Source: a virus. From it: a stretch of DNA of 26,174 nucleotides. Positions 1 through 26,174 of the stretch are shown piece by piece (position 1 is the first letter of the stretch; each line of letters begins with the position of its first letter). The position numbers and the translations under genes are program-made. Location of the stretch: IMG/VR virus record IMGVR_UViG_3300012936_000142, positions 1 through 26,174 of that record. The stretch is one strand, 5' to 3'. The notes beneath the pieces were generated by a model. That model saw only the letters and a program-made list of their open reading frames with translations. It was not told where the DNA came from and ran no database searches.

Positions 1-395
1 AAGACGTGACACTTAACTTAGACGATATTCAACCTGAAGGTAATCTTCCTGAAGACTATACAGTCATGATTACTGATAAAGTAGGATTGACATTAATGGT
101 TCCACTTGTTGAAGGAGTCGAAAAGGTCGCAGACCTTAAAGAGGAAAGTCAAACAGTAGAACTTATTAAACAATCTATAGTAAACATTTTTGACGAAGAG
201 AATGTTTATGAAGGTTCGGACTTGACTAAAGCAGAAAGGGACGAGTTTGTGGATTCTTTAACGTTCCCTCAGTTAGAACTTGTTGGAAAGTGGTTTGACC
301 AACTTCCAAAATTAAGTGCAAGACTAGAGTGGGATTGTGAAGAGTGTGGAACAAAGAATGAGCAAAACTTAGAAGGAATTCAAAATTTTTTTTAA
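1..395 (+). CDS. 26: T4 gp26/gp51-type baseplate hub assembly protein, 5' partial
   Basis: The reading frame is open to the left edge, so the N-terminus is probably outside the window; the GTG at 6 is only the first possible start inside it. The visible 129 residues resemble the T4-like baseplate hub assembly chaperone (gp26/gp51 family): an acidic N-terminal part, a conserved-looking stretch around TFPQLELVGKWFDQLP, and a C-terminal CEECGT half zinc-knuckle. In T4 this class of protein helps assemble the central hub of the baseplate and is not thought to be a major part of the finished virion. The frame ends at TAA 393-395 straight after a run of eight T. A second ORF in the -1 frame continues the family's usual C-terminal region (see 386-392 and 416-604). 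Family call from recalled resemblance; good confidence on hub chaperone, less on gp26 versus gp51. Confidence 0.72.
   Translation, partial: DVTLNLDDIQPEGNLPEDYTVMITDKVGLTLMVPLVEGVEKVADLKEESQTVELIKQSIVNIFDEENVYEGSDLTKAERDEFVDSLTFPQLELVGKWFDQLPKLSARLEWDCEECGTKNEQNLEGIQNFF
386..392 (+). promoter_or_regulatory. Candidate -1 ribosomal frameshift slippery site (T TTT TTT)
   Basis: Zero-frame codons run AAT TTT TTT TAA, so both codons before the stop can re-pair perfectly after slipping back one base. In the -1 frame the ribosome would miss the TAA at 393-395 and read Leu-Ile-Ala-Leu-Ser-His-Glu into the ORF annotated at 416-604. The -1 frame is open on both sides of the site. The downstream ORF has no good start or ribosome binding site of its own. 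Inferred, not proven. Confidence 0.55.
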
Positions 396-415
396 TAGCT
401 CTTTCTCATGAAAGT

Positions 416-604
416 GTGTTCAATCATTATAACACTAACTTTCAATTAATGCAACACCACAAGTATTCGTTGACTGAATTAGACAATATGATACCTTGGG
501 AAAGAGAGATTTACATTAAGTTATTAATGCAACATCTTAAAGAAGAAAAAAGTAGACAAGAAGCCGAGAACGCAAAAATCAGAGCTCAGTCTAAAAGAAG
601 ATAA
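416..604 (+). CDS. C-terminal part of hub assembly chaperone, probably made by -1 frameshift
   Basis: This 62-codon ORF is in the -1 frame relative to the gene before it. Its first in-frame start is a GTG at 416 with no Shine-Dalgarno sequence; the first ATG (449) also lacks one. The frame is open upstream through the T8 run at 385-392, giving a joined product ...NFF-LIALSHES-... . Features such as MQHHKYSLTEL and MIPWEREIYIKLL, then a charged helical tail, look like the conserved C-terminal part of T4-like hub assembly proteins, which I recall as continuous with the gp26-like part in related phages. I therefore read it as the extension of a short/long chaperone pair, by analogy with lambda G/GT. 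An independent gene with a GTG start is the alternative. Confidence 0.6.
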   Translation: MFNHYNTNFQLMQHHKYSLTELDNMIPWEREIYIKLLMQHLKEEKSRQEAENAKIRAQSKRR

Positions 605-614
605 GGAAAACATT

Positions 615-1001
615 ATGGCGGACACAATCATAAAGGAAAATAATACGACTAACGAAGTCGAGATTTCCCTAGACAAATATATGAAACTTATCGACCAGTT
701 AGATGAACAGGAAGATAAGATTAAGGAAATGCAAGAAGAGGCCAAGAAAGCTAGGTCACAACTTGCACCACCTAAAAGAAAATTCATGGATTTGTTTTTA
801 GACGACAATGATATAAATGAGAAATCAATTATTGGTTTTATCTCATTTGCATTAATGACTGTATTCGGTATTTGTGATTTGGTCACTGCATTCGCAGGTA
901 AAGACCTAGTAATCTCGGATACTATTTACACTTCATTTGTTGTTGTGACACTAGGTGCATTTGGTATTAGTGAAGCAGGAAAAGCCTTCGGCGGAAAATA
1001 G
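615..1001 (+). CDS. Putative membrane protein in the tail hub operon
   Basis: 128 residues, not assigned to a family. The first ~55 residues are charged and likely coiled coil (DQLDEQEDKIKEMQEEAKKA); after a Pro-rich linker come two hydrophobic segments, roughly residues 76-98 and 102-122, with a Gly/Lys-rich end. The start ATG at 615 has an AGGA ribosome-binding element about 8 bases upstream and follows the hub ORF by 10 bp. It sits between the hub chaperone and the tape measure, so it could be a tail component with membrane-active segments, or a holin-like protein placed in the late operon. The sequence does not decide between these. Confidence 0.6.
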   Translation: MADTIIKENNTTNEVEISLDKYMKLIDQLDEQEDKIKEMQEEAKKARSQLAPPKRKFMDLFLDDNDINEKSIIGFISFALMTVFGICDLVTAFAGKDLVISDTIYTSFVVVTLGAFGISEAGKAFGGK

Positions 1002-1012
1002 GACTCGTATAA

Positions 1013-3550
1013 ATGGATGACGGAACCAAGAGTATAAGAGAACAACGGGAAGATTTAGCTAAAGAAATCAAAGACGTTAATGCTAAACTGAAGCCTGGTT
1101 TTCAAAAAATCATATCAGATTTAGAAGAAGTTTCTCCACAAGTTGCTAAGATAACTGCAGACTTTAGGGAATCTAGTAAGGATTCCTTTACGGGTGCATT
1201 GGCAACTAGAAAATTAAAAAACCTCACTGGTCTTGTCGACAAATATATGAAAGAGGGTGAATCAGCCCTTGACCCTAAAGAACTCAAACAATTACAATCA
1301 AACTTCTCACAAGAAATTGATGGTGTAATGGAAACCTTCGACTTTGAAGGAATGAGAAATGCACAATTAGAATTCAATGCAACTCAAGACGCATTAATAG
1401 AACTTGAAGACAAAAAACAAGCAAGACTTGAAGTTGCACTTAAAAGAAATAATGTTCTCGGTCAATTAGATAAAAAGATTGACGATGCACGTGCAAAATC
1501 ATTTGGTTTACAAGGTGCAGCCTTAAACGAGAACACTAAACTCATAGAAGATTTACAATCACAAAGAAAAGAAAAACAAGACGAAATCACTGCAGCCTTT
1601 GATAGAGAGATTGCACTAGAGAAAAAATCATTAGAAGAAAAGAAAGAAGCACTCTCAGAATCTACTGAAGCATATCAAAAAGGTTTAGAACAAGCAACTA
1701 AATTTGAAGGTATGGAGAAGTTCAGTAGTGGTATTGAAGAACTAACTGGAATTGATATACTTGGTTTTGCTGATACAGTCACTAAGAAAGTAAATGCAAT
1801 TAGTGACGTTATGGGTTCAATCGGTGGTGCATTAGGTGAAGCAGGTAAAGGACTCAAAGAAAAAGTCGGTGGTTTCATGGAAGGTTTCAAAAACCTTCTT
1901 ACACCTAAAGCAAAAGAAGGTGGTAAAGACGAAGGTGTTATCGGTGGTGCATTAAAAGATAAAGCAAAAGGAATGGCTGCTGGTATGTCTTCTGACCAAG
2001 CAGATAAGTCAACTGGTATCACAAAGAAAGCAGGTAAGAGTGGTGGTTTCTTAGGTGCAATTGCAAGAGGTGTTAAAAGATTTGGTGACTCTAAAGTATT
2101 AAAAGGTGCATTGACACTTGCGATACTTGGTGGAACAATCGGTATTCTTGCAGTCGGACTTAAAGCATTCCAAGGTTTAGATTTCAAAACACTATTAACT
2201 GGTTTTGTTGCACTTGGTGGTTTAATACTATTTGCAAGATTAATCGGTAAAGCAACAATGGGTATCTTAAAAGGTGCCGCTGCTATCTTTGTATTAGGTG
2301 CCTCATTAATCCCATTTGCATTTGCACTTAACTTAATGAAAGACGCAGGTATAGGAACCATAGCTGCAATTGCAATCGGTCTTACTGTTCTTGGAGTAGC
2401 AGCCTCAATACTAGGTGGTATGCTTCCTGTTATTGCACTAGGTGCTGTTGCAATCGCATTACTAGGTGCAGCTCTAATTCCATTTGCATATGCAGCTCAA
2501 CTAGCTGCACAAGCATTCAATATGTTCATAACGGATATATTGAAACTAAGTTTAGTTGATGGTGGAAACTTAATTCTAGTTGGTGTTGGATTAGCAGCTA
2601 TTGGTGCTGGTCTAGTTGCAATGACTGGTGGTGGACTCATAGGAAGTTTATTAGAAGGACTAGGAAGTCTATTCGGTGCAAAATCTCCTATGGAGAAAGT
2701 GACTGACTTTGCAAAAGGTTTAGAAGACGTTGACATGACTAAGATAGTTGACCTAGGACAAGCATTCGAAAAATTACAAAATGCAGAAGGTGCTATAATG
2801 TTATTCAGTAATGTTGATGCGAAAGCAAAAGGTCTAAAACGATTTGCAGAAGGTATAGACGAACTAACTGCCGCACTAATCAGATTAGAAGAAGGAGCTC
2901 CTAAGAAACAAAGTTGGTGGGATAAAATGACTGCACTTGCAAGTAAAGTCATGGGAACAACACCACAACAAAGAACTGAAGAACAGATTGCACAATCCGA
3001 AGATAGATTAGTTAGAAAACAAACTGCTCGTGACCAAGTTCAAGTAGACCCAACTGGTAGGAACGGCCCAGTGACAGATAGTGCAATGTCATGGGAAATG
3101 TGGGAAACCAAACAAAAACTTCTTGCAGATAGAGCAGAAGCATTCCCTGAACATGAAAAAATGCGTCAAGAGTTTATGTCGGGTAAAGGTGAAATGGAAA
3201 CTGCAACTGCAGAAATGCAAGCAGAAGAAATTAGATTGTCTAGATTACAACAACAGATGATAGAACATAATATTGTTGCAAGACAAAAATTCGGAATACC
3301 ACACTTATATTCACCTGATGAAATTGCAGCTGCTGGAGTTCAAGACCAAGGTGGTCAAATCGCAGGTGCAAGAGAAGACGCAGGAATGGGTGGACAAGGA
3401 CAAGGTGCTCAAGTTGCAATGGCTAACAGCACAAACCTAATGATGAGTGGTCAAACTTATAATGATATCAATCCACCAAGAGTAAACAATGACGATGCTT
3501 CAGTCTATAAGTATGGTGGTGGTATGGGATATGGAGAAGACGACTTCTAG
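1013..3550 (+). CDS. 29: Tail tape measure / baseplate hub protein (gp29-like)
   Basis: 845 residues, the largest protein here. Residues ~1-240 are strongly helical and charged (coiled coil, many Lys/Glu/Gln). Residues ~245-350 are Gly/Lys-rich. Residues ~355-570 hold a series of Ala/Gly/Leu/Ile-rich hydrophobic segments like the membrane-active helices of tape measure proteins. The C-terminal ~250 residues are polar and Gln/Gly-rich, ending GYGEDDF. Length, architecture and position after the hub chaperone match a tape measure protein that sets tail length and is ejected with the DNA; T4 gp29 is shorter (590 aa). The start is the ATG at 1013 with a weak AGGA 10 bases upstream. The stop overlaps by 4 bp the stop of the opposing gene at 3547-4104, with no terminator visible between them. 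Confidence 0.8.
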   Translation: MDDGTKSIREQREDLAKEIKDVNAKLKPGFQKIISDLEEVSPQVAKITADFRESSKDSFTGALATRKLKNLTGLVDKYMKEGESALDPKELKQLQSNFSQEIDGVMETFDFEGMRNAQLEFNATQDALIELEDKKQARLEVALKRNNVLGQLDKKIDDARAKSFGLQGAALNENTKLIEDLQSQRKEKQDEITAAFDREIALEKKSLEEKKEALSESTEAYQKGLEQATKFEGMEKFSSGIEELTGIDILGFADTVTKKVNAISDVMGSIGGALGEAGKGLKEKVGGFMEGFKNLLTPKAKEGGKDEGVIGGALKDKAKGMAAGMSSDQADKSTGITKKAGKSGGFLGAIARGVKRFGDSKVLKGALTLAILGGTIGILAVGLKAFQGLDFKTLLTGFVALGGLILFARLIGKATMGILKGAAAIFVLGASLIPFAFALNLMKDAGIGTIAAIAIGLTVLGVAASILGGMLPVIALGAVAIALLGAALIPFAYAAQLAAQAFNMFITDILKLSLVDGGNLILVGVGLAAIGAGLVAMTGGGLIGSLLEGLGSLFGAKSPMEKVTDFAKGLEDVDMTKIVDLGQAFEKLQNAEGAIMLFSNVDAKAKGLKRFAEGIDELTAALIRLEEGAPKKQSWWDKMTALASKVMGTTPQQRTEEQIAQSEDRLVRKQTARDQVQVDPTGRNGPVTDSAMSWEMWETKQKLLADRAEAFPEHEKMRQEFMSGKGEMETATAEMQAEEIRLSRLQQQMIEHNIVARQKFGIPHLYSPDEIAAAGVQDQGGQIAGAREDAGMGGQGQGAQVAMANSTNLMMSGQTYNDINPPRVNNDDASVYKYGGGMGYGEDDF

Positions 3551-4104
3551 AAAAAGTCCTCCAACGAACCTTCTTTACAATCTACTAAATCTCCTTCCAT
3601 AGAATCTAACACTTCTTTTGCTTCGTCAACTGAAATCTTAAACCATTCACCATTACATACAACTCCTCTTTCAGTTAGAAGTTGTTGAAACTCTAGTTCT
3701 CCTTGTCTTCTATTTTTAAACCATTTGTAATATCTTAGTTCATAATCTCTGAAAGGACTTCCAGTTTGATATCCATTACACCTATCTTGTGCAACGGAAG
3801 CTTTACCAGTGCATACCCATTCGGGATAAGCAGGATTTGTAATTATATAAACGTCACCACTTAACACTTTATCTTCTAAACTCTTTGCAAGTGTTAACAT
3901 ATCTTCCCGACTTTCGATACCTTTGGGTGGAATAATTTTATCTATACTTCCTCCCTGTTGTAGATATCCGTCAATAGTTCTCCATTCAACCTTATAAAAG
4001 ATTCTACCCTTTTCGTCCATTTGGTGATTGACTCCATTCTTTCTCCATGTATGTCCGTCCCATTTCTTTCCGTCACTACGGATATCACCATACTCGGGTT
4101 TCAT
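3547..4104 (-). CDS. GIY-YIG-superfamily (T5orf172-like) protein
   Basis: 185 residues. The N-terminal ~65 residues (WDGHTWRKNG, GRIFYKVEWRT) look like a small DNA- or substrate-binding module. From about residue 84 a GIY-YIG-like core can be followed: VYIITNPAYPEWVCTGKA, then an Arg (QDRCNGY), YQTGSPF, a Glu-containing helix (GELEFQQLL) and GEWFKIS, in the order seen in T5orf172/MUG113 domains. These are usually DNA endonucleases or inactive relatives. The usual K-I-G after the second strand is CTGK, so catalytic status is uncertain. The start ATG overlaps the previous gene's stop as ATGA (4101-4104). Last gene of the bS21 group. It could be a free-standing homing-type endonuclease; no recognisable intron lies nearby. 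Confidence 0.6.
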   Translation of the reverse strand: MKPEYGDIRSDGKKWDGHTWRKNGVNHQMDEKGRIFYKVEWRTIDGYLQQGGSIDKIIPPKGIESREDMLTLAKSLEDKVLSGDVYIITNPAYPEWVCTGKASVAQDRCNGYQTGSPFRDYELRYYKWFKNRRQGELEFQQLLTERGVVCNGEWFKISVDEAKEVLDSMEGDLVDCKEGSLEDFF

Positions 4105-4310
4105 TCTTTCCAGTCGAATTTATGTTTTAAGTGTCTAGGGATAACCTTAGTCTTATCTTTATGAATCTGAGTAGACCCATGTGAGGGTGTTTCTTTACGA
4201 ACTTTAATTTCAGGTTTTGGTTTGCCAAAGATTTTCTCCCAGTTCTCTGAGTATAAATCTTCGTTAGAGTTCCTTCTTTTGGAACCCTTTCCACCATGCC
4301 AATTACTCAT
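4101..4310 (-). CDS. Small conserved-type phage protein (MSNWHGGKGSKRR)
   Basis: 69 residues, basic. The N-terminus MSNWHGGKGSKRR followed by ENWEKIFGK is a pattern I recall from small uncharacterised proteins in many tailed phages; no function is known to me. I chose the ATG at 4310 because the conserved-looking start is there and because a separate small gene (4313-4432) ends 2 bp upstream; the longer open frame has no reason to be used. No Shine-Dalgarno sequence is seen, so translation probably depends on coupling to the upstream small gene. Its stop overlaps the GIY-YIG start (ATGA). Confidence 0.65.
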   Translation of the reverse strand: MSNWHGGKGSKRRNSNEDLYSENWEKIFGKPKPEIKVRKETPSHGSTQIHKDKTKVIPRHLKHKFDWKE

Positions 4311-4312
4311 AT

Positions 4313-4432
4313 TTAAAATAGTGAAGGTTGGAAATTTAAATAGATATAGATTGCACCTATCAAACAAACTATACCTACAACAGTAGAGATTATCCACTGT
4401 CTTATAATTCTCTGTTCTCTTTTACTTCTCAT
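4313..4432 (-). CDS. 39-aa single-pass membrane peptide
   Basis: Short ORF found by direct translation of the gap between bS21 and the 69-aa gene. It begins with a basic stretch ([12 protein letters not shown]), then one hydrophobic segment at about residues 13-33 ([20 protein letters not shown]), and a short tail. The start ATG at 4432 overlaps the bS21 stop in an ATGA arrangement (4429-4432), and the stop lies 2 bp before the next gene's ATG. Tight packing on both sides and a clean positive-inside topology support a real gene. Function unknown. Confidence 0.6.
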
Positions 4433-4665
4433 CGAATATGTCTATAACCTTTCATAGAAGCACGTTTAGCTTCTATTTTCTTTCTACGTTTAATCTCTTG
4501 ATTCTTTTGATTCCTTTTAGTGTTAGGTTTCTCATAATATTGTCTATCACGGCATTCTTGAACGATACCTTTACGTTCACATGCTTTTTTGAATCTACGT
4601 AGCATTCTATCGAAAGGTTCGACATTTTTATTCTTAGGATTAACTTTTGGTTTTACACTCGGCAT
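4429..4665 (-). CDS. rpsU: Ribosomal protein bS21 homologue
   Basis: 78 residues (E. coli bS21 has 71). The core [16 protein letters not shown], then [16 protein letters not shown] and a long Lys/Arg-rich tail, matches bS21 along its length, with a slightly longer N-terminus. In bacteria bS21 is a late-joining protein on the 30S platform beside the anti-Shine-Dalgarno end of 16S rRNA and promotes initiation. Homologues are known from marine phages, including pelagiphage HTVC008M, and are thought to replace host bS21 on ribosomes. The gene lies 1 bp after the methyltransferase stop and is coupled by ATGA to a 39-aa membrane peptide. See also the RimK-RimB fusion at 19311-20738, which may act on the same part of the ribosome. 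Confidence 0.92.
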
Positions 4666-4666
4666 A

Positions 4667-5554
4667 TTAACTAAAAAATTGTTCTAAAGATTCTACTTTA
4701 TTCTTTATTTTATCTGAGTTAGAAACTAACTCCCCACTTTTACGAAACACTAAAATGAACTCATGCACTTTTGCAGTGTATCTTTTACTTGCACACTTAC
4801 CTGCTTGTAAGGCTGCAAATATGGTGTCGTTCTTCATTACAATAATGTCATGAAGATTTAGACCAGCCATTGTGAACATATTTATGGTATCTGAATGGAA
4901 AGGAATGTATTCACCACCTTTTCTCCAATCACCACAAACCCAAACACAAAACCCGCCAGGTTTCAACACACGTTCTATATTCTGTCCACATATTTCTATA
5001 CGATTACGGAACTCAGTATAACTTCTAATATCAGATAACTGACCTTCTGCACTTTCGTATCTTTCTATGTCACCATAAGGTGGACAAGTCATAACTAAGT
5101 TTGCACTCTCATCATCTGTATGGGACATTTCACACCCGTCACTCTCTATGATATCATAGTATCCGTCAAAGGAATGTCTTCCCATTTCTTCTCTAACTTT
5201 TTTTACTGTTTCGGGAGATACGTCATAACCTATATAATCTCTCCCTAATTTTGCAGACACGAACGCACGTGTCATTCTTCCAGCAAAAGGGTCAACGATT
5301 GTATCACCAACCATAGACCAATAGTGAACTATATTCTCACATAAACCAGCATGAAACTCTGACATCATTAAACCATTAGGAAGACGAGGACAAACACCTC
5401 TCTTTTCTTCATACGCAGTTAAGTATGCGTCGTCCCAATTGTTCTTAGATGATTTAGTTGGTGTTATAACTGACTGAGGGTTCCAACCAAACTGGTCGAT
5501 AACCCTTTCGTTTTCGTTCCATGGTAGAACGTTTTTATAATATTCACTTTTCAT
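4667..5554 (-). CDS. N4/N6-type DNA methyltransferase
   Basis: 295 residues. The SAM-binding motif I is DPFAG (residues 88-92) with GYD following at about 109-111; the catalytic motif IV is TCPPY (156-160), in place of the commoner (D/N/S)PPY. Motif I therefore precedes motif IV, unlike the beta-class order. Further C-terminal are [15 protein letters not shown] and a final FILVFRK strand, usual for the amino-methyltransferase fold. It should methylate an exocyclic amino group of A or C in DNA; the recognition sequence cannot be read from the protein. No cognate restriction enzyme is seen nearby, so it is best called an orphan phage enzyme, perhaps for protection against host restriction. ATG at 5554 overlaps a small upstream frame's TGA (ATGA). 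Confidence 0.85.
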
Positions 5555-5708
5555 AATCTATTAAAGTGTGAAGTCACCCCACGCCTTACAGCAACCCGTT
5601 CTTCACCAATCAACTCCGCACCTGTAATGATGTTGTTGATTTTTCCCTTACTAAGCACCCCCTAATTTCCACGGCCTTAGTGTTGTAGTCGTCTTTATTC
5701 ACGGACAC
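5551..5708 (-). pseudogene. Possible small gene split by a one-base shift in a G run
   Basis: The ~190 bp between gp32 and the methyltransferase is not obviously regulatory. On the - strand one frame starts at GTG 5708 (or GTG 5702) and reads protein-like sequence NKDDYNTKAVEIRG to a run of five G (complement of 5658-5662), then soon stops at 5610-5612. The -1 frame takes over exactly at that run: VLSKGKINNIITGAELIGEE and on to a TGA at 5551-5553 that overlaps the methyltransferase ATG. A sixth G, or a -1 slip, would give one ~52-residue protein. It may be a sequencing or assembly error, a recent mutation, or programmed frameshifting. An 8-bp inverted repeat (5685-5692 with 5721-5728) lies near the start. 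Confidence 0.4.
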
Positions 5709-5741
5709 ATTTTGAAACAAACGACTACCCCAAATTAGAAA

Positions 5742-6641
5742 TTAACTATCTGAAGCTAATTTCTTAAAGTAATCCATCGCGTCGTCTTCTTCCACTTGTG
5801 GAGAGGATTCTGCTGATGCGATTACAGGTTCTTCTGCAACACTTTCAGTGTTCACGTTAGACCAAGGCACTTCGTCTAAGTCTTCAGCAACACTTTCTGC
5901 AGTTGCATTAGATACAGTCCCAGTTAAACCCAACACTCTATCGAGTTTCTCTTTGAGTTCCTCGTAGGTTTTGAATTCACTTGGTGCAATCACTTCTTGC
6001 AATGAATGAGTTTGATTATTTATATCATTCAATTGATTTTCATCATCAAAAAGTGGAGCAGGTGTATCGAACTCTGATTTATCATAGTTCCAATATCCGT
6101 CTACTTTTCTGATTTTGATTTTGAAGTTTGCACCTTCACCTCTTAAATCAAAAGGATTGATTGCTTGTTCATCGTCAAACGCTGGTGATATTGCTTCTTT
6201 GAGTTGTTCAAAGATTTTTTTACCATATCTGTATTTGAATACTTTACCTTCGTTATCAGGATTTTTTGGGTCTGAGATAACATAGACATTGGACACATAG
6301 TGTAAACGTCTTTTTTGTTTACGTGCAATCTCTTTGTTTGCTTCAATCCCAGTATTCCATAACTGAGTATTGTATTCGGACACTGGGTCTTGTTTACCAA
6401 GAGTCGTTAAAGACTTCTCGATATACCAACCGCCTGGCCCTTGGAACCCGTGGTCAAAGTAAGATACCCAAGGCATTTCTTCGTTTTCGGGAGTAGGTAA
6501 GAAACGAACTACTGCATAACCATTACCAGTTTTATCTAATTCAGGTTTCCAGTAAGTATCGTCTGAATAGGACTTTTTTGCACCTTCAGTAGGTGAAGCA
6601 GATTCCATAGCTGCTCTTAGTTTATCTAATGATGTCGACAT
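5742..6641 (-). CDS. 32: Single-stranded DNA-binding protein gp32
   Basis: 299 residues, close to T4 gp32 (301). The N-terminal segment is MSTSLDKLRAAMES; the core holds GNGYAVVRFLP, the OB-fold region (YVSNVYVISDPKNP, KVFKYRYGKKIFEQL), and NPFDLRGEGANFKIKI; the C-terminus is a long acidic tail ending EEDDAMDYFKKLASDS, which in T4 recruits replication partners. No cysteine is present in the whole protein, so the His/Cys zinc site of T4 gp32 is missing; I believe this is also so in cyanophage relatives. It coats ssDNA in replication, recombination and repair. AGGAGA lies 7 bases before the ATG. The promoter and an unstructured A-rich leader lie upstream, and the helicase loader gp59 is the neighbour upstream, as in T4-like gene order. 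Confidence 0.92.
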   Translation of the reverse strand: MSTSLDKLRAAMESASPTEGAKKSYSDDTYWKPELDKTGNGYAVVRFLPTPENEEMPWVSYFDHGFQGPGGWYIEKSLTTLGKQDPVSEYNTQLWNTGIEANKEIARKQKRRLHYVSNVYVISDPKNPDNEGKVFKYRYGKKIFEQLKEAISPAFDDEQAINPFDLRGEGANFKIKIRKVDGYWNYDKSEFDTPAPLFDDENQLNDINNQTHSLQEVIAPSEFKTYEELKEKLDRVLGLTGTVSNATAESVAEDLDEVPWSNVNTESVAEEPVIASAESSPQVEEDDAMDYFKKLASDS

Positions 6642-6712
6642 TGTATTCTCCTATTGTATCGCATTGTATTAGCATTTTATCTTTGCATAGAAACCTTAGT
6701 TCCTATACTCCT

Positions 6713-6741
6713 ATTATAGTGTATTACTGATAATCCTACAA
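6713..6741 (-). promoter_or_regulatory. Sigma70-like promoter for gene 32
   Basis: On the - strand TTGTAG (complement of 6736-6741) is followed after 17 bp by a perfect TATAAT (complement of 6713-6718). The predicted start of transcription is near 6706, giving a leader of about 65 bases before the gp32 ATG at 6641. The leader is A-rich and lacks clear hairpins; it holds repeated AATAC/GATACAAT-like elements beside the ribosome binding site, which suits autogenous control by gp32 as known in T4. Confidence 0.55.
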
Positions 6742-6764
6742 GAGGGTTTCTCAGAAATACCATA

Positions 6765-6772
6765 TATTTATA
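6765..6772 (-). promoter_or_regulatory. Possible T4-type late promoter (TATAAATA) upstream of gene 32
   Basis: An exact TATAAATA lies on the - strand in the gp59-gp32 gap, about 125 bp before the gp32 start. T4 gene 32 has several promoters including a late one, so the place is sensible. In DNA this A+T-rich, a few chance copies of the octamer are expected in 26 kb, so the evidence is positional only. Confidence 0.3.
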
Positions 6773-6832
6773 TAATTTATTTTCTTAGGATTTGTTTTTT
6801 TATACATAATAATGTTATGTCTATAACCCGCT

Positions 6833-7423
6833 CTATATACACAACTCTTTGAGTAGGTCTTTATACTTCTTATAATCAACACTTATAAAACTCTTATACT
6901 TGTTAATCCTATTCTGTATGTCGGGGTAGACGAGGGTTTCGGAAATTAGTCGTTCCCAATCCTTCGTAAATCCTATGATTTCGTCCATTATACAAATCGT
7001 TTCGAGGGATATCTTCTTACCCATAAACTGTTTAAGTAATATGGGGTGTTGTCCGTTCTTCACTTCTAACACTTGATTGATATTCTTCTTACGTAGTAAA
7101 TCAGACACTTCCGTTTCAAAAAGATACGATAGTTTCTGATTCCTATTCTTCCAATCTTTATAGACTTTGACACACTCATTATCAAGTAAGTCACCTGCCC
7201 ATAAATCTTTTAAAGACAAGTTTGCAATATAAAAATCTTGCAATTCTTGTTTGTGGGTTTTGAACAATTTACCAAAGTGGTATTTGTCCTTACGTTTTAG
7301 AAAAGAATTGATATCACTTTTCACTTTACCATTGTATTTTATAAAGTCATAATCCTTAGAATGGAAATGCAACTTTATTCCAAGGTAAAGTGTATATGCA
7401 TCATATCCTTCTCTACTTGTCAT
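6833..7423 (-). CDS. 59: Replicative helicase loader gp59
   Basis: 196 residues (T4 gp59 is 217). The N-terminal YTLYLGIKLHFHSKDYDFIKYNGK, then FLKRKDKYHFGKLFK, is the hallmark of this family. The C-terminal half is helical with FTKDWERLISE and basic IQNRINKYKSF. In T4, gp59 binds fork DNA and gp32 and loads the gp41 helicase, coupling recombination to replication. The gene stands directly upstream of gp32 and directly downstream (no gap between stop and start) of the 95-aa gene. The ATG at 7423 abuts the preceding stop and has no strong Shine-Dalgarno, suggesting coupling. Confidence 0.88.
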   Translation of the reverse strand: MTSREGYDAYTLYLGIKLHFHSKDYDFIKYNGKVKSDINSFLKRKDKYHFGKLFKTHKQELQDFYIANLSLKDLWAGDLLDNECVKVYKDWKNRNQKLSYLFETEVSDLLRKKNINQVLEVKNGQHPILLKQFMGKKISLETICIMDEIIGFTKDWERLISETLVYPDIQNRINKYKSFISVDYKKYKDLLKELCI

Positions 7424-7711: not shown

Positions 7712-7719
7712 AATAACTC

Positions 7720-8605: not shown

Positions 8606-8606
8606 T

Positions 8607-9287: not shown

Positions 9288-9293
9288 TATATT

Positions 9294-10571: not shown

Positions 10572-10583
10572 TATCCACTTCTC

Positions 10584-11135: not shown

Positions 11136-11140
11136 AATAA

Positions 11141-19309: not shown

Positions 19310-19310
19310 G

Positions 19311-20738
19311 TTAGTCCTCTTCAGAAGTGTCGTGTTTGTTTGTCAATAGGAATTTCCTAGACGGGTTAATCATTAAGTTTGCACGATTCATAAAATCTCT
19401 ATTTGCAAGAAAAGGGATTTTACCTCTTTGGTCTAAACTGACTTCCTGTTCATATATAGTATTTAAGAAGTTTAACTCACACATCACCACTGGTCTAGTT
19501 TCGGGTGGTTTGAGTAATGTAAGTTCTCTGACTAAAGGTTTCTTATATTTTTTACCATTCCTTTCGAAATGAACAACCTTCCCTCTGACCTCATAGGAGT
19601 CTGCGTGAAGGGCACAAGCGTTTGCGCTATTACCAGTGTCTAGCTTTGCAGTCATCGTTTCTCCATCGACCTCTATCGTTTCGAGAACACCACATTCTGT
19701 TGCACTCTTCTTCCAAATATTTCTATCGAAGTAATCGTCTATGATTGTTTCACAAACTTCTTCACCTAGTGCGTCACTGATTCCTTGTGACCCAGGCGAC
19801 TGGTTAACCTCTAAAATATAAGGTGAATCTTTCTCTCTATTATCAGCAGGAATAAAGTCAACACCAACCCATTGACCATTTACTGCTTTTGCAGCGACAA
19901 GACATGTTTCTTTTTCTAAATCTGTTAGTTCGATTTCTTCTGCTTCTGCACCTTGTGAAATATTAGAACGGAAGTCGTCAATGATTTTCTTACGTTTCAT
20001 TGCACCGATAATTCTTTTATTGTTTATCATAACCCTTACGTCATATTCCATATCGATATACTCTTGTAAAAGAATATCACAATTAGGGTCAATCTTATAC
20101 ACTAGACTCACTGTAGACTGCAGAGAACGTTCCGTTTCAACAAGCAATACCCCAACACCCTTTGCACCTTGAAGTGTCTTTAGAACCATTGGGAATTCGT
20201 TGTCGAGTCTTTCAGCAGCTAGGTCAACAGTTTCGGGGTCTTCGTTTGGAACCAAAACTGTTCGAGGTTGGTTCATACCAATCTCTTGTAATCTCAAATA
20301 AGTTCTAAACTTATCTGCACAAACTTCGATACACTCCCTTGAATTTACTACAGGGAATCCGTATCTTTCGATTTGTGAAATTAAATCTAAGTATGAATCT
20401 TTAGTTGTGACTGCACCACGAACCATAACAAGTGTGTTTGCATCTAATTCAAAACCTTTCTTATCGTCTTGGTTATGAATTGTAATGGTTCCGTTATCGT
20501 CACGTTCAATATATGCACCATTCACTTTAACACTATACACTTCACAACCACGTTCTTTTGCAATGTTGTAAAGTTTACTGGAAGTTGAACTTGGTTTTTT
20601 TATGACTGGTTTGTCTTTGTTCTTCTTTGCCTTTTTCACCATGCGACGTTCTGCAATGACAACCAAACGATATGGTTTATCATTAGTCTTCTCTTCTGAG
20701 ATTAACTCATTGAACGATAACATTCTTTTATTCCTCAT
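19311..20738 (-). CDS. RimK-type ATP-grasp ligase fused to RimB-like aspartic protease domain
   Basis: 475 residues, two domains. Residues ~20-335 are a RimK-type ATP-grasp enzyme: RECIEVCADKFRTYLRLQE, FPMVLKTLQGAKGVGVLLVE (ATP loop), ILLQEYIDMEYDVRVMINN, and the metal site YILEVNQSPG. RimK in E. coli adds glutamates to the C-terminus of ribosomal protein S6. Residues ~350-465 match the retropepsin-like RimB/zinc-protease family: AKLDTGNSANACAL (Asp367-Thr-Gly), RPVVMCEL, EQEVSLDQRG, IPFLANRDFM, INPSRKFLL. Bacteria usually encode these as two proteins. A plausible role is changing ribosomal S6 or another phage-chosen protein. The ATG lies 11 bp inside the upstream nuclease gene. Target is inference. 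Confidence 0.88.
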   Translation of the reverse strand: MRNKRMLSFNELISEEKTNDKPYRLVVIAERRMVKKAKKNKDKPVIKKPSSTSSKLYNIAKERGCEVYSVKVNGAYIERDDNGTITIHNQDDKKGFELDANTLVMVRGAVTTKDSYLDLISQIERYGFPVVNSRECIEVCADKFRTYLRLQEIGMNQPRTVLVPNEDPETVDLAAERLDNEFPMVLKTLQGAKGVGVLLVETERSLQSTVSLVYKIDPNCDILLQEYIDMEYDVRVMINNKRIIGAMKRKKIIDDFRSNISQGAEAEEIELTDLEKETCLVAAKAVNGQWVGVDFIPADNREKDSPYILEVNQSPGSQGISDALGEEVCETIIDDYFDRNIWKKSATECGVLETIEVDGETMTAKLDTGNSANACALHADSYEVRGKVVHFERNGKKYKKPLVRELTLLKPPETRPVVMCELNFLNTIYEQEVSLDQRGKIPFLANRDFMNRANLMINPSRKFLLTNKHDTSEED

Positions 20739-21066
20739 GTTTAATTAATTGAACAAATTTTTCTGCGTCAATCACCACCAGTGGTTTATGACGATTCCTT
20801 TTTATTACTACAAGGGGTTCATACCCTTTGCAGTTTTCAGAAGCTTGTTCGTATGCTTTCCATACATTAACTGCTTCTTGATTCTTACATTCTACACTAA
20901 AAGGAAATAACTGTCTAGATTGTTTTCCAAGAATAATGTCTTCACCTTGTGAACCCATTGGTCTTGATTCTATATCTTCAGAATCTAATCCTAGTGTTTC
21001 GACTAGGACGTTTGCAAACCACTGTTGTAATTTACGACCCTTTGCTTTTGCTGACTGAGTTTTCAT
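20728..21066 (-). CDS. Small PD-(D/E)XK nuclease, Holliday-junction-resolvase-like
   Basis: 112 residues. KAKGRKLQQWFANVL (basic N-terminal helix), MGSQGEDIIL (Asp43), PFSVECKNQE (Glu59, Lys61) and a following helix with Gln74 make the PD-(D/E)XK core in the arrangement of Hjc/VRR-like nucleases. It may cut branched DNA in late replication or recombination; T4 endonuclease VII, which does this in T4, is of another fold and is not in this window. The ATG lies 35 bp inside the end of the small gene upstream, and its own stop overlaps the RimK-like start. Confidence 0.75.
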   Translation of the reverse strand: MKTQSAKAKGRKLQQWFANVLVETLGLDSEDIESRPMGSQGEDIILGKQSRQLFPFSVECKNQEAVNVWKAYEQASENCKGYEPLVVIKRNRHKPLVVIDAEKFVQLIKHEE

Positions 21067-21178
21067 AATCTAATATTTCATTACTGACTTTCGTTTCCCA
21101 TATCCATGGTAGTAGACCATGCACAAAAAGAATTAAACCCATTCTCCATGCATGTAATAAATGTCGAAAATAATTCAT
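21032..21178 (-). CDS. Small amphipathic or membrane protein (DUF6356-like)
   Basis: 48 residues from ATG 21178. NYFRHLLHAWRMGLILFVHGLLPWIWETKV is strongly hydrophobic with His/Arg near the start and resembles small phage proteins I recall as DUF6356 (not checked). Tail KSKGS is basic. No clear Shine-Dalgarno. It lies between IscA (20 bp upstream) and the nuclease, which it overlaps. Function unknown. Confidence 0.55.
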   Translation of the reverse strand: MNYFRHLLHAWRMGLILFVHGLLPWIWETKVSNEILDYENSVSKSKGS

Positions 21179-21197
21179 TTGCACTTCGTCTAAGTGT

Positions 21198-21572
21198 TCA
21201 CACTTCAATTGCAAATATTTTCTTCTCATCTAGTTCTACTTTACTTAAGTCAAAGTTAATTGAAACACCACAACCACATGATGCTTCTTCTTTTGGGTTA
21301 ATAAACTTAAATACTTCGTTTAAACCTTCCTTACGATAGTCAAGTGTCATTCCATTTATATACGGAACTGATAATCTATCTATAAGAAATTGAATCTTAC
21401 CGAAGTCGATTTCTATGTCGTCAGCATTCTTGCTAGTAGTAGAATCAAAAACATATTCAAAACCAGCACAACCACCCCCAGTAATTCCGAGTCGAATATA
21501 CTTGAAGTTTTCTTTTTCTTGTTTTTCGAGTAGTTTGACAATAGCTTCGTCTGTTAGTTCTATTAACTCCAT
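21198..21572 (-). CDS. iscA: A-type iron-sulfur carrier, IscA/ErpA family
   Basis: 124 residues from ATG 21572. Cys35 (TGGGCAGFEY), Cys99 and Cys101 (SCGCGVSI) are the three conserved ligands, at the same numbers as in E. coli IscA; a C-terminal tail of ~18 residues (KVELDEKKIFAIEV) is extra. The longer frame upstream would run into the carbamoyltransferase gene and was not used. A-type carriers hand 2Fe-2S or 4Fe-4S clusters to target proteins; phage copies are known from cyanophages and pelagiphages. The radical SAM protein here is one possible client. No Shine-Dalgarno; a TATAAATA box lies just before the ATG. Confidence 0.9.
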   Translation of the reverse strand: MELIELTDEAIVKLLEKQEKENFKYIRLGITGGGCAGFEYVFDSTTSKNADDIEIDFGKIQFLIDRLSVPYINGMTLDYRKEGLNEVFKFINPKEEASCGCGVSINFDLSKVELDEKKIFAIEV

Positions 21573-21575
21573 AGA

Positions 21576-21583
21576 ACTATTTA
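21576..21583 (-). promoter_or_regulatory. Possible late promoter box before iscA
   Basis: Exact TATAAATA followed by G on the - strand, 4 bp before the iscA ATG. If used, RNA would begin at or just inside the gene, so it is either non-functional or gives a leaderless or shorter product. Confidence 0.22.
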
Positions 21584-21585
21584 TA

Positions 21586-22203
21586 TTATCTATTGTCGTC
21601 TTGTGGTGGATAATTTGTTCTCTTGTCTTTACACAACTCGTAAGGAATTGCAATCTCTTGGTCTTCGGGAATATACAAGTGATTTATCTCTGAACGATTA
21701 CACGTATCAATTGCATCAAATATATTCTCCACAAGTGCTTCACCACCTAAGTTAAATGAAGTGTTAAAGATAATAGGTGTTCCAGTGATATCACCGAACC
21801 CTTTAATTAAATCGTAATAGTTTTTATTCTGTTTACGATTGACTGTTTGAATTCTACAGGTTCCGTCTGCATGAACCAAACTAGGAATCTCGTCATATGC
21901 TTTTTGTTTCGCTTGAATTGCAAAAGACATATTCGGTGAAGACTTGAGTTGCAACATTTCAAAATATTCATGTGCATGTTCTTCTAAGATTGTTCCTGCG
22001 AATGGACGATAGTCTTCTCTACGTTTGACTTCATTAACGATTTGTTTTGCATGAGAGTGACGTGGGTCAAATAATATACTACGATTACCTAATGCACGAG
22101 GCCCCCACTCAGACTGACCTTGAAAGATTGCAACAATTTGTCTACGTTCAATCAGTTCATGTAGAACGTCATCTAAATTTCTATGTATTCTAGTTATTAT
22201 CAT
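21586..22203 (-). CDS. Carbamoyltransferase, C-terminal (YrdC-like/Kae1-C) part
   Basis: 205 residues. IVAIFQGQSEWGPRALGNRSIL, FDPRHSHAKQIVNEVKRREDYRPFAG, LVHADGTCRIQTVN and GTPIIFNTSFNLGGEALV are the hallmarks of the C-terminal half of the NodU/CmcH/TobZ carbamoyltransferase family. In most homologues this is joined to the N-terminal half in a single ~570-600-residue protein. Here it has its own ATG at 22203, 14 bp inside the end of the N-terminal gene in another frame, so the two halves would form a two-subunit enzyme or reflect a frameshift. See 22190-23404 for the reaction. Confidence 0.85.
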   Translation of the reverse strand: MIITRIHRNLDDVLHELIERRQIVAIFQGQSEWGPRALGNRSILFDPRHSHAKQIVNEVKRREDYRPFAGTILEEHAHEYFEMLQLKSSPNMSFAIQAKQKAYDEIPSLVHADGTCRIQTVNRKQNKNYYDLIKGFGDITGTPIIFNTSFNLGGEALVENIFDAIDTCNRSEINHLYIPEDQEIAIPYELCKDKRTNYPPQDDNR

Positions 22204-23404
22204 TTCTTCTACTCACTATATCTTTATTCTTCATTAACAAGTCAAGGTGAACACACGCACCAAACGCAGTTCCTCCGTCATGTGGAATTGGGTCAACAAA
22301 AAATTGATGGTCGGGGAAGACACTTAAATATTTGTAATTGTTTGTGCAATTCAACGCATAACCACCACTCAACAATATGTTCTTACAGTCGGGGTTGAGG
22401 TCGATTGCTTTTTGTATAGTCTTACAAGTGTTATCGAATGCATGAAGTTCTAACTCTTGTGCATACGCATAATTATTAAAGTTTCTATGTGGTGGTTCGG
22501 TTGCAATACCATAACTTGCCATACCCATAACTTTACCAGCTGCACGTCCTAACTTATCACACCCTAGTGCATGAGATATATTAGAAAAGTCCATACCATT
22601 ACTTGCACGTGAAGTGTATTCGTATTCCACTCCGTCTTTGACTTCGATTACATTCTCACCCATATAATCCAATGACCCGTGTTGTTGATTCGGGAAACCA
22701 TTTCCATGTAGATTACCTAATGCACGATGATTGGATTGTAAGACCCATTGACGTTCTGCAAACTCACCTTTTTTCATTCTGTAAATGGATTCAATCTCTT
22801 GATAACTTCTCCAGTTATCCCAGTCTAACCTTGCACCACCGCCGTCCATGGTGATTGCAATACAGTCTTCACCATTTTCGTAATAGGGACTGAGGTAATA
22901 ACCACAATATGCGTGAAACAAGTGGTGTTCATACCAAAAATAATATGAGTGCATAGGTTCACCATTAACTTCGAACTGACTTGCAAACCCGTCATGAATT
23001 CCTTTCTCTTCATGAATACCACCGACACCACTTCCCGTAATAAAATCACTGTATTTTTCTACCAGTCTTTCTTCACGTTTATTATTTAAAGGTTCAGACG
23101 CAATCCATTCTGCAATCTCCATTGAGGTCATACGATTCTCTAAGAGTTTATCTACGTCCCAATCTATATTAAAGGAACGTCTATCAAAACTTGCAAACAC
23201 TAGTTCGTCTGGCCTTTGCACACCACCTTTATAGATTGCACTCAACACGTCATGGTGTTGGTTGTCTGAACTTTTGTAATGAGGTGACCAATATTTGTGT
23301 CGTCTGAATCTATCTTCTTCGTGCATGAAGTCGAGTGTTTGGGTTTCGGTATCATACTGACACACGGAAGTGTCGTGACTGGAATTTATTCCCACAATTT
23401 TCAT
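22190..23404 (-). CDS. Carbamoyltransferase, N-terminal (Kae1-like) part
   Basis: 404 residues. MKIVGINSSHDTSVC, HEEDRFRRHKYWSP, HHLFHAYCGYYLSPY (metal-binding His pair), AITMDGGG and a later ILLSGGYALNCTNNYKY, PHDGGTAFGAC are the expected blocks of the Kae1-like domain of NodU/TobZ enzymes. Those enzymes use carbamoyl phosphate and ATP to carbamoylate a hydroxyl, usually on a sugar or antibiotic; the phage substrate is unknown. The frame ends with VSRRNDNN just as the C-terminal gene begins. AGGAT lies before ATG 23404. Together with PLP, radical SAM and SDR genes it suggests a small-molecule or DNA/sugar modification set. Confidence 0.87.
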   Translation of the reverse strand: MKIVGINSSHDTSVCQYDTETQTLDFMHEEDRFRRHKYWSPHYKSSDNQHHDVLSAIYKGGVQRPDELVFASFDRRSFNIDWDVDKLLENRMTSMEIAEWIASEPLNNKREERLVEKYSDFITGSGVGGIHEEKGIHDGFASQFEVNGEPMHSYYFWYEHHLFHAYCGYYLSPYYENGEDCIAITMDGGGARLDWDNWRSYQEIESIYRMKKGEFAERQWVLQSNHRALGNLHGNGFPNQQHGSLDYMGENVIEVKDGVEYEYTSRASNGMDFSNISHALGCDKLGRAAGKVMGMASYGIATEPPHRNFNNYAYAQELELHAFDNTCKTIQKAIDLNPDCKNILLSGGYALNCTNNYKYLSVFPDHQFFVDPIPHDGGTAFGACVHLDLLMKNKDIVSRRNDNN

Positions 23405-23419
23405 ATTAAATCCTATACT

Positions 23420-23617
23420 CTATTTTAATTTTTTCTTTAGTTGTTCTTGTTCTGCAATTTCACCAATAAACTTCTTCGTTTTATTTAGGTCGAGTAATTC
23501 TTGGTCTAACATATCCTCAAACATTTCCCCACGACCATATTTTTTACCACTTGCCCATGAGAAATAAACACATGCTGTGATAAACACAAAGTGTAATAAA
23601 ATTAATTCGGTTGACAT
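23420..23617 (-). CDS. Single-pass membrane protein with coiled-coil tail
   Basis: 65 residues. One hydrophobic segment at ~4-22 (ELILLHFVFITACVYFSWA), then a basic turn (GKKYGRG) and a helical charged tail (ELLDLNKTKKFIGEIAEQEQLKKKLK). Unknown function. The ATG overlaps the stop of the preceding membrane gene by one base (23617). Confidence 0.6.
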   Translation of the reverse strand: MSTELILLHFVFITACVYFSWASGKKYGRGEMFEDMLDQELLDLNKTKKFIGEIAEQEQLKKKLK

Positions 23618-23802
23618 TATACTATATAGTCCTCGGGTGTTTCTTCTTTTTCTTTCTTTCTACTTGACTGCCATTCTTCCCAATAACGAATTGCACCTTC
23701 TTTAAATATCCATACGAGGACTGCAATGATACTTCCCCAAAAGATAACGTTGAGTGCAACTTCAAATAAAAAGATAGGAATATTCCATAAAAATTCTAAC
23801 AT
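23617..23802 (-). CDS. Single-pass membrane protein, basic/acidic tail
   Basis: 61 residues from ATG 23802 (MLEFLWNIPIFLFEVALNV); the earlier in-frame start would overlap the micropeptide gene. Hydrophobic segments cover about residues 3-32, followed by a charged tail (SRKKEKEETPEDYIV). Unknown function; part of a run of small membrane genes. Confidence 0.58.
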   Translation of the reverse strand: MLEFLWNIPIFLFEVALNVIFWGSIIAVLVWIFKEGAIRYWEEWQSSRKKEKEETPEDYIV

Positions 23803-23804
23803 AA

Positions 23805-23885
23805 TTATAATTGTGTATACCACACGTATGCAATCAGTGTAAGTATAAGTGTAATATATGTTAATTCAAAAATAACACTTATCAT
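23805..23885 (-). CDS. 26-aa membrane micropeptide
   Basis: MISVIFELTYITLILTLIAY followed by VWYTQL: one hydrophobic helix. Its ATG overlaps the TGA of the 100-aa membrane protein (23882-23885, ATGA), and the next gene's ATG is 2 bp after its stop. The tiling is the main evidence; too short for codon statistics. Confidence 0.45.
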   Translation of the reverse strand: MISVIFELTYITLILTLIAYVWYTQL

Positions 23886-24184
23886 AATATACTTTCCACT
23901 AGATTACGGATTAATAATAACAACCCAGCACCATTCAACATGATTAACGCTCGGTCATTCCATAAAACTGATACCCATAACCAAAGGGATATTCCGACCA
24001 TACTTAAATATAAGTCATAGTGTTGGTATCCCTCTACACCACGAAACGACATTGCAACCAATACAAAGATACTTGCAACCCATTTTACATACCAGTCTGT
24101 AGTATATTTAGGTGTTGCAGATTTAAATATTCGGTCACTCTTCTTTATTTCTTCTATACTAAACTTATTTTTCTTTGGTGTCAT
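23882..24184 (-). CDS. Multi-pass membrane protein, conserved in type
   Basis: 100 residues. The N-terminal 30 residues are basic (PKKNKFSIEEIKKSDRIFKS), followed by TPKYTTDWYVKWVASIFVLV and two further hydrophobic stretches (YLSMVGISLWLWVSVLWND, ALIMLNGAGLLLLIRNLV): three helices. I recall similar ~100-aa proteins with a YTTDWYVKW motif in marine T4-like phages; function unknown. Overlaps the end of the PLP enzyme gene by 20 bp. Confidence 0.65.
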   Translation of the reverse strand: MTPKKNKFSIEEIKKSDRIFKSATPKYTTDWYVKWVASIFVLVAMSFRGVEGYQHYDLYLSMVGISLWLWVSVLWNDRALIMLNGAGLLLLIRNLVESIL

Positions 24185-25040
24185 AACCTTTCCTTAATTT
24201 ATTCGTATTACCAATAATCCAATAACACTCACTATTATTCTTTTCCCAATCAACCATATCAAAGGCCTTAGATTCATATATCATGTCCAATTCGATAGAC
24301 CCCACACTACGAGGGTGGAGTTTTGCATAGGGATATTTACCTTTACGAAACTCATAATCGTATTCAAAGGTCATTCCTTCACATATACTACTAACAGTCC
24401 CAGTTCGGTCATACCCAAAAGGTTGTAAACCCACGATATGATAATCACCACCATACTTTTTACGACCCTCTAAGACCCCTGCTAAGGTCACACCCGACCC
24501 CACTGGAACATACAAGACACGGACATTTTCGGGAATATTTTGCACTTGTTCAGATATTCTCCCAACAATTGATTCCCTATGTGTTTGAGCTGCATATCCA
24601 AAGAGTATAGGGAAGAATGGTCTTTGTAATTGTAGTTTCTTTAAATTACTGTAAAGAACATTATTAAACCCTTGTGACTCAGATAATACTACGAGTTCTG
24701 CACCCATATCATTACACCACTGCATAGGAATCTGTTTCAAAGACTTCTCGACAGTGGTATTCCCAAACCCTATAATGCAATTTAAGTCAAACTCTTGTGC
24801 GACACGTGCAACAATAGGGGACTGAGGACTATGAATACTAGCTGCAGTTGCAATGGTTGAATCACAAAACTCATGAATGTAGTCTAAATTACGTTCAACT
24901 AAGTCCCTACATTGACGTATCTTACCACCACTAATAAAAGAATCCCCATAAGGTGCATATAAGTCCTCACGTTTGAAGTGAATACCCTCTACAAGGTCTA
25001 CAGGTGTAAATTCACTAGTCTTTAGGTGGTGTAATGACAC
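24165..25040 (-). CDS. PLP-dependent enzyme of the ACC deaminase / D-cysteine desulfhydrase fold
   Basis: 291 residues. HFKREDLYAPYGDSFISGGK places Lys40 as the residue that forms the Schiff base with PLP; TAASIHSPQSPIVARVA stands in the substrate-carboxylate loop; VPVGSGVTLAGVLEG is the glycine-rich loop that binds the PLP phosphate. This is the fold-type II (TrpB-like) family that includes ACC deaminase and D-cysteine desulfhydrase; the reaction here cannot be read. Start is GTG 25040, with AGG 7-8 bases upstream, inside the preceding small gene. Next to membrane genes and a short way from the carbamoyltransferase. Confidence 0.78.
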   Translation of the reverse strand: MSLHHLKTSEFTPVDLVEGIHFKREDLYAPYGDSFISGGKIRQCRDLVERNLDYIHEFCDSTIATAASIHSPQSPIVARVAQEFDLNCIIGFGNTTVEKSLKQIPMQWCNDMGAELVVLSESQGFNNVLYSNLKKLQLQRPFFPILFGYAAQTHRESIVGRISEQVQNIPENVRVLYVPVGSGVTLAGVLEGRKKYGGDYHIVGLQPFGYDRTGTVSSICEGMTFEYDYEFRKGKYPYAKLHPRSVGSIELDMIYESKAFDMVDWEKNNSECYWIIGNTNKLRKGYDTKEK

Positions 25041-25289: not shown

Positions 25290-25309
25290 AAATATTCACA
25301 TGGGGGGTT

Positions 25310-25457: not shown

Positions 25458-25463
25458 TATACT

Positions 25464-25640: not shown

Positions 25641-25646
25641 TACTCT

Positions 25647-25675
25647 ATTATAACACTAATGAAAGTCTTTTACAA
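25647..25675 (-). promoter_or_regulatory. Sigma70-like promoter (TTGTAA-17-TATAAT, extended -10)
   Basis: TTGTAA (complement of 25670-25675), 17 bp, TATAAT (complement of 25647-25652), with TGT just before the -10. It lies over the last codons of the 74-aa gene. Weaker -35 than the four consensus promoters. Predicted start near 25640, upstream of gene-free structured DNA. Confidence 0.55.
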
Positions 25676-25880
25676 CCCCATTTATGCATATTTTAAACAA
25701 ATGTATGTTATTGACCACACGAATACCTGTATCTTTATACACTATATCCATGGCCTTTGACCAGTTATCATTAATATTACCTTTCTTTGCAGTAATAAAC
25801 AACACGGCCTTCATACTGAGTGGTATCTTTATATCTTTACCACCATTAACCTTTTGACCTATTATATAATTATCCCTCAT
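25656..25880 (-). CDS. Hypothetical 74-aa protein
   Basis: MRDNYIIGQKVNGGKDIKIP, then SMKAVLFITAKKG and a C-terminal IRVVNNIHLFKICING. Basic, mixed alpha/beta by eye, no family recognised. It overlaps the preceding gene by 11 bp. Its end carries the -35 of a promoter. Confidence 0.55.
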   Translation of the reverse strand: MRDNYIIGQKVNGGKDIKIPLSMKAVLFITAKKGNINDNWSKAMDIVYKDTGIRVVNNIHLFKICINGVVKDFH

Positions 25881-26058
25881 AACTTTTCATCCATTCTGCA
25901 AGTATAGTCCTAGCTTCATACTTACTGATATTAAACTCTTTTGCAACATACGGAGCTGCACCGAACATATTAGTTTCACCATGACTCCTGAGTAGGTCAA
26001 GGTAGAAGAATATATGTTCCTTTCTATTATTACTTACTGTAAACAACTCTGCATTCAT
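25870..26058 (-). CDS. Small conserved-type protein (helix-turn-helix-like)
   Basis: 62 residues from ATG 26058 (MNAELFTVSNNRKEHIFFYL). TNMFGAAPYVAKEFNISKYEARTILAEW reads like a short winged-helix or helix-turn-helix unit (helix, turn at FNIS, second helix), and I recall similar small proteins in T4-like marine phages. Could bind DNA or RNA polymerase; unproven. The ATG overlaps the stop of the membrane peptide upstream (ATGA). Confidence 0.6.
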   Translation of the reverse strand: MNAELFTVSNNRKEHIFFYLDLLRSHGETNMFGAAPYVAKEFNISKYEARTILAEWMKSYEG

Positions 26059-26153
26059 ATTATCTGTCCTACTATTATAAGGGTTAACATACCACATAGT
26101 GTAGTGACAAAGTCCCTATCTAGTAGTCCGTGTTTTCGTATTGTTTTTATCAT
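26055..26153 (-). CDS. 32-aa membrane micropeptide
   Basis: MIKTIRKHGLLDRDFVTTLC followed by GMLTLIIVGQII: a basic N-terminus then one hydrophobic helix. Its TGA overlaps the next gene's ATG (26055-26058). No clear ribosome binding site is seen in the few bases left at the window edge. Modest evidence, from coupling and topology. The last ~20 bases of the window contain nothing else I can call. Confidence 0.42.
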   Translation of the reverse strand: MIKTIRKHGLLDRDFVTTLCGMLTLIIVGQII

Positions 26154-26174
26154 GATACTAGTATACCAAAAAAT

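Follow-up and report, generated by a model that had tools for sequence, protein, structure and literature searches.

Avoidance of Type II restriction sites is known in non-temperate phages; roughly one viral genome in ten has eliminated such sites completely or almost completely, and Type I and Type IIG sites showed no avoidance (Rusinov et al. 2018, PMC6286503). The absence of GATC from phiX174 has been attributed to mismatch repair (PMC5014478). Phages also make restriction-resistant cytosines by combining C5-methyltransferases, TET/JBP enzymes and glycosyltransferases (PMC12730594), and phage DNA methylated by C5-methyltransferases, including those acting at GpC, resists cognate and overlapping restriction (PMC7653180). 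The virus DNA studied here displays the known phenomenon of restriction-site avoidance in a form both extreme and stepwise. Like the avoidance described in PMC6286503, it concerns short, mostly palindromic, Type II-like words completely lost from a non-temperate double-stranded DNA phage; unlike it, about eleven word families are affected together, the sets are stepwise and differ between close relatives, non-palindromic words (GAGAC, ACCGT, HCCAGA) are included, and several losses are flank-dependent. As in phiX174, GATC is wholly absent, but here it is one of many lost words. Two relatives, the contig G012 and the cultured phage Melnitz, resemble the known C5/TET hypermodification systems in possessing a C5-methyltransferase adjoining a Tet_JBP oxygenase and in their GpC footprint; unlike in those systems, the corresponding slot in the species under study is occupied by an unrelated 482-aa methyltransferase, and the footprint is an evolutionary one.

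The stretch of DNA analysed, hereafter the window (G000), is a virus record of 26,174 bases with T4-like genes (baseplate hub, gp32, gp59, gp33 and a T4-type RNase H); it is part of an uncultured marine lytic T4-like phage. By gp32, the nearest cultured phages are the Methylophilales phage Melnitz (54%), the cyanophage P-RSM1 (53%) and the pelagiphages Mosig (53%) and HTVC008M (52%). IMG/VR is rich in close relatives of the window, and these relative contigs are mostly incomplete. A sister genome (G033C79; JAAXIF010000105.1), a 121-kb contig inside a metagenome-assembled genome (MAG), is 95.7–98.6% identical to window positions 1–11187, with a gp32 distance of 0.013 between the two. The gene used as the marker for finding relatives and for the tree, and the zone under study, are as follows:

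5742–6641, minus strand, gp32 single-stranded DNA-binding protein
1–26174, no strand, zone without eleven word families (summed expectation about 356 sites, found 0)

The MAG that contains the sister contig (G033; JAAXIF01) holds two T4-like phage contigs, C79 and C58, both of which are probably mis-binned. The window also encodes a ribosomal protein bS21 (TIGR00030; 4429–4665), which adjoins a methyltransferase gene (4667–5554) and is present in 23/23 relative contigs searched. This 'Sphingobacteriales' MAG (SW22112_bin_1) was rejected as the host: the phage bS21 shares only 30% identity with the MAG's own copy and no more than 47% with any copy from the other searched genomes of that phylum, and a binning error is probable. 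Cargo genes at 13723–15226 and 19311–25040 encode a radical SAM/SPASM protein, a RimK-like ATP-grasp protein, a carbamoyltransferase and a PLP-dependent enzyme.

Neither GATC nor GTAC occurs in the window, as the preliminary description of this DNA had claimed, against 65.7 and 56.6 sites expected under a second-order Markov model and 85.6 for either word from base composition alone. The absences extend to GTWAC (44 expected), GAGAC/GTCTC (38), ACCGT/ACGGT (29), GGWCC (26), CCGG (11.6), GTGCAC (12), HCCAGA/TCTGGD (41), HCCWGGD (18) and HCCTGCA/TGCAGGD (13); the Markov and reference expectations are not alike in every detail and lead to the same conclusion. The preliminary description was right about its two words and incomplete as a list, as it missed at least nine further lost words, among them CCGG despite the assertion that other palindromes occur normally, together with the GpC exemption discussed below; its G+C content of about 33% has to be corrected to 36.2%. 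Its contention that the coding sequence actively avoids these words holds. The GAT codon is used in 0/50 cases before a codon starting with C and in 228/407 cases elsewhere (p = 9e-17), GTA in 0/49 cases before such a codon, TAC in 0/44 and ATC in 0/82 (p = 7e-12) cases after a codon ending in G, and the Asp examples that had been quoted are real to within 1–3 bases (GAC at 1271, 1994, 3032 and 3344). Within-gene shuffling of synonymous codons (300 shuffles) gave 54 ± 6 GATC (minimum 39) and 41 ± 5 GTAC (minimum 27); the corresponding expectations for the coding sequence are 33 for GTWAC, 26 for GAGAC, 26 for ACCGT, 10 for GGWCC and 9 for CCGG. A strand-asymmetric, Type III-like avoidance is ruled out by the depletion of the non-palindromic words in both orientations. 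We know of no restriction specificity that matches ACCGT or HCCAGA. The GGATG sites surviving in the window (1015, 8790, 13363, 25888) lie in 4/4 cases within ATGGATGA, as do 13/16 in the contigs of its clade, some of which overlap.

When the relatives are compared, individual words switch lineage by lineage, and each contig lacks its own particular set. The words are thus absent or depleted relative to composition and codon controls, in a manner that is word-specific and variable among relatives, without a general compositional trend. GATC is the most widely lost word, and is still present in G005, G011, L009, L019 and L050; ACGT, present in the window, is missing from G008, G009, G010, G012 and G029–G032. 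On the gp32 tree, the minimum number of changes is 11 for GATC, 8 for CCGG, 7 for ACGT, 5 each for GGWCC and ACCGT, 4 each for GTAC and GTWAC, and 3 for GAGAC. Complete loss of GAGAC is confined to the window's own species (the window itself and G001, 0/66); the word is nearly gone from G033C79 (17/156) and about half depleted in G019 (25/46) and G021, so that its purge is still in progress in a genome that is about 96% identical to the window. Of the GAGAC sites of G019, 21 could be aligned to the window, and every one of these is changed there, eight of them to GAAAC, as against 21/82 for the control word GAGAA; likewise, 45/45 GTAC and 69/69 GTAAC sites of G014 are missing from G001. Such complete loss of homologous sites is the pattern expected from selection by restriction. 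The cultured phage Melnitz (PMC9004378) has, like the window, been purged (GATC 5/169, GGWCC 0/40, HCCWGGD 0/20); unlike the window, it retains GTAC, GTWAC and HCCAGA.

The words built on CC (CCWGG, GGNCC, CCAGA, CCTGCA and CCGG) have been purged only where they do not overlap a GpC dinucleotide, most clearly in the form GCC. Relatives that do not purge hold HCCWGGD and GCCWGGN in a ratio of 152:55; the corresponding ratios are 0:50 for G033C79 (p = 5e-24) and 0:64 for G012 (p = 3e-29). For GGWCC and GGSCC, the non-purging relatives give 120:19 and G012 gives 0:52 (p = 4e-31). Every avoider has 0 HCCWGGD, and most of them have GCCWGGN at no less than the reference level; GGSCC, which contains a GpC, is enriched where GGWCC is absent. 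The residual CCAGA sites of the window's clade are GCCAGA in 21/21 cases, while 542/613 sites in five non-purging relatives are something else, and all residual CCGG sites in G012, G002, G007, G013 and Melnitz have a GCC flank. Within the window, the four CCWGG sites, the five GGNCC sites (5/5 GGSCC, 0 GGWCC) and the sole CCAGA site all overlap a GpC:

1093–1099, no strand, CCWGG survivor GCCTGGT, exempting 5' G
4955–4961, no strand, CCWGG survivor GCCAGGT, exempting 5' G
6432–6440, no strand, CCWGG survivor GCCTGGC, overlapping the surviving GGCCC at 6436
19791–19797, no strand, CCWGG survivor CCCAGGC, exempt on the opposite strand (GCCTGGG)
3065–3069, no strand, GGNCC site GGCCC with a GpC inside (others at 6436, 12109, 14757 and 22100)
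23208–23213, no strand, sole CCAGA/TCTGG site TCTGGC, GCCAGA on the opposite strand, an exempt context

The exemption is clear for GCC and weaker for GCT (CACAGC is retained more often than CACAGD), and it is not seen for GCATCC, lost like other CATCC sites, or for GTGCAC, lost although it has a GpC inside. The words concerned are separable: Melnitz and G030 purge CCWGG and CCTGCA and retain CCAGA, G004 and G026 purge CCWGG and CCAGA and retain CCTGCA, and a single enzyme of odd specificity therefore fails to explain the exemption that they have in common. On its simplest reading, the pattern suggests a GpC modification of the phage DNA, in which case only unshielded sites would have needed purging. 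We found no description of this flank rule in the literature searched.

The readable DNA-modification slots of the avoiders, located near the DNA polymerase gene, are filled in one of two ways: by a C5-methyltransferase accompanied by a TET oxygenase, or by a 482-aa methyltransferase, unrelated to the former, that takes the place of the C5/TET genes between the same neighbouring genes. In G012 and Melnitz, the C5-methyltransferases are 54% identical to each other, and each is followed by a Tet_JBP protein; Burke et al. reportedly found in 2021 that phage TETs prefer Gp5mC, a preference with which the GpC footprint would fit. The window lies outside the slot, and the 482-aa gene is assigned to its species via G033C79, where the slot lies between the Hsp20 and lysozyme genes, and via the locus L335, which has a 98% identical protein of this type, an identical set of lost words and the sample number of G001. 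The sequence available for the species yielded no adjacent C5/Tet_JBP pair. The 482-aa protein of G033C79 (C79:90983–92431) contains the motif TSPPYF (SPPY-type) and matches N6_N4_Mtase marginally (27.3 bits, the cut-off being 26.7); its AlphaFold model is predicted to be a class I SAM-dependent methyltransferase (mean pLDDT 81), and a fold search gave no informative match. Among loci that are related and partly overlapping, so that the counts do not represent independent events, 80 IMG/VR C5 loci (77 with TET; 757 kb) hold 7 GGWCC, 3 HCCWGGD, 368 GGSCC and 173 GCCWGGN, and 51 loci of the 482-aa type (at least 56% identity; 413 kb) hold 0 GGWCC, 0 HCCWGGD, 0 HCCGGD, 78 GGSCC and 111 GCCWGGN. 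The two enzymes occur together in 0 of the loci surveyed. Homologues of the 482-aa protein at 50–55% identity are found in phages that as a group show no purge, and in G008, which has neither slot enzyme, the CC-built words are unpurged.

A footprint of another kind is found in G008 and HTVC008M (L216, first 50 kb), in which 18 and 24 GATC sites survive, all of them as GGATC on one strand; HGATCD is represented by 0 sites against 395 expected in G008 and 0 against 141 in HTVC008M. By the same flank logic, survival of GATC only as GGATC would predict a GGATC-related modification in these two phages. In the same 50 kb of HTVC008M, TCGA stands at 0/39 and GANTC at 16/109.

Three genes of the window could be suspected from their products of a part in the losses:

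4667–5554, minus strand, N4/N6-type DNA methyltransferase (N6_N4_Mtase, phrog_12517)
3547–4104, minus strand, GIY-YIG/T5orf172-type nuclease ORF, cleanly inserted (about 550 bp) and missing in the sister G033C79
20728–21066, minus strand, small PD-(D/E)XK nuclease-like protein (PDDEXK_15), with homologues in the GATC-containing G005 and G011

The preliminary description had suggested that the methyltransferase may be related to the losses; METHYLTRANSFERASE at 4667–5554 is of the N4/N6 type. When gp32 loci no shorter than 5 kb are counted, GATC is absent from 54/54 carriers of this gene and also from 33/59 non-carriers, and 32/54 carriers retain GTAC. The methyltransferase is thus unnecessary for the loss of GATC and insufficient for that of GTAC; it accompanies heavily purged lineages and tracks no loss exactly, and a homologue was not found in Melnitz at the search sensitivity used. 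Nor do Dam-type (PF02086; 0/23 phage contigs) or C5 (PF00145; only in G012) methyltransferases explain the relatives that contain GATC. The GIY-YIG/T5orf172 ORF, probably a homing-type endonuclease, was found among the loci searched only in the window and in G001 (with L083, the same contig). None of the gene families tracking GTAC, ACGT or GATC status is able to explain the losses.

We consider it likely that restriction-site purging along the lineage and GpC modification shielding the residual sites of CC-built words together account for these observations. The ancestors of the phage would have repeatedly encountered hosts whose restriction enzymes were sequence-specific and mostly Type II-like. 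Every enzyme newly met would have selected point mutations, mostly absorbed by codon choice, until the genome was rid of its word, and words would have been added successively along the lineage. Cytosine modification at GpC would have provided a second defence by blocking enzymes that cut CC-built words, the putative modifier being the slot enzyme: the C5-methyltransferase with TET in some lineages, and the unrelated SPPY-type 482-aa enzyme in the window's species. Exposure to restriction, already favoured in the preliminary description, is the best explanation for losses that are complete, word-specific, switched on and off among close relatives and achieved through codon-absorbed point changes; which enzymes were met is a matter that we infer. 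We further hold, with slightly better than even confidence, that the genome records both sides of this conflict, in that the purged words would correspond to the enzymes met and the survival flanks to the recognition sequence of the phage's own modifier, that two unrelated enzymes swapping in one slot would leave the same GpC footprint, that G008 and HTVC008M would have a separate GGATC shielding, and that modification and site removal would be complementary layers.

Flanking bases affect cutting by some restriction enzymes, and the flank rule could accordingly be a property of host enzymes that do not cut where G precedes CC, the phage DNA being unmodified. We regard this as unlikely, since the same 5' G exemption applies to separable words lost in different combinations, since GGNCC has no such flank and is instead exempt when a GpC lies inside it, and since the exemption coincides with cytosine-modification genes in far-apart lineages. 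The presence of two nuclease-like genes in the window (3547–4104 and 20728–21066) might instead suggest that nucleases encoded by the phage attack host DNA at these words, which the phage's own genome must therefore lack. This is highly improbable: G033C79 does not have the GIY-YIG gene and is nevertheless strongly depleted in GAGAC, so that this gene was rejected as the cause of that loss, and the PD-(D/E)XK gene, which occurs in the GATC-rich G005 and G011, was discarded as an explanation for the absence of GATC. A nuclease gene tracking word loss, as phage-encoded restriction-modification would require, was looked for and not found; the only families that occur in both GTAC-less genomes, G012 and G033C79, and in none of the incomplete contigs that contain GTAC are two small ones of unknown function.

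Escape from methyl-directed mismatch repair, for which phiX174 provides a precedent (PMC5014478), would agree with GATC being the word most often lost in the group, but the loss is not confined to GATC. GTAC, GTWAC, GAGAC, ACCGT, GGWCC and CCGG behave alike and would be left unexplained, and the survival of GATC only as GGATC in G008 and HTVC008M is not predicted; we give this explanation hardly any credence. Chance, base composition or codon usage can practically be dismissed, as none of the synonymous shuffles approaches 0 for the main words and relatives of equal composition have normal counts.

With purging combined with GpC shielding as the preferred explanation, the course of avoidance can be traced word by word in marine phages that are abundant and uncultured, and one purge is seen before its completion. 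With the flank rule, it may be possible to read both the modification specificity of a phage and the restriction enzymes of its unknown hosts from sequence alone; the rule is also evidence from nature that sites would be shielded from restriction where phage C5/TET pathways modify cytosine at GpC. Both claims are directly testable, for example with the cultured phage Melnitz and its OM43 host. Beside the C5/TET genes of G012 lie two further genes, one for a 331-aa protein that has no Pfam or PHROG match (L253:5519-6514) and one for a P-loop kinase-like protein (L253:6511-7047), which could possibly carry out later steps of cytosine hypermodification.
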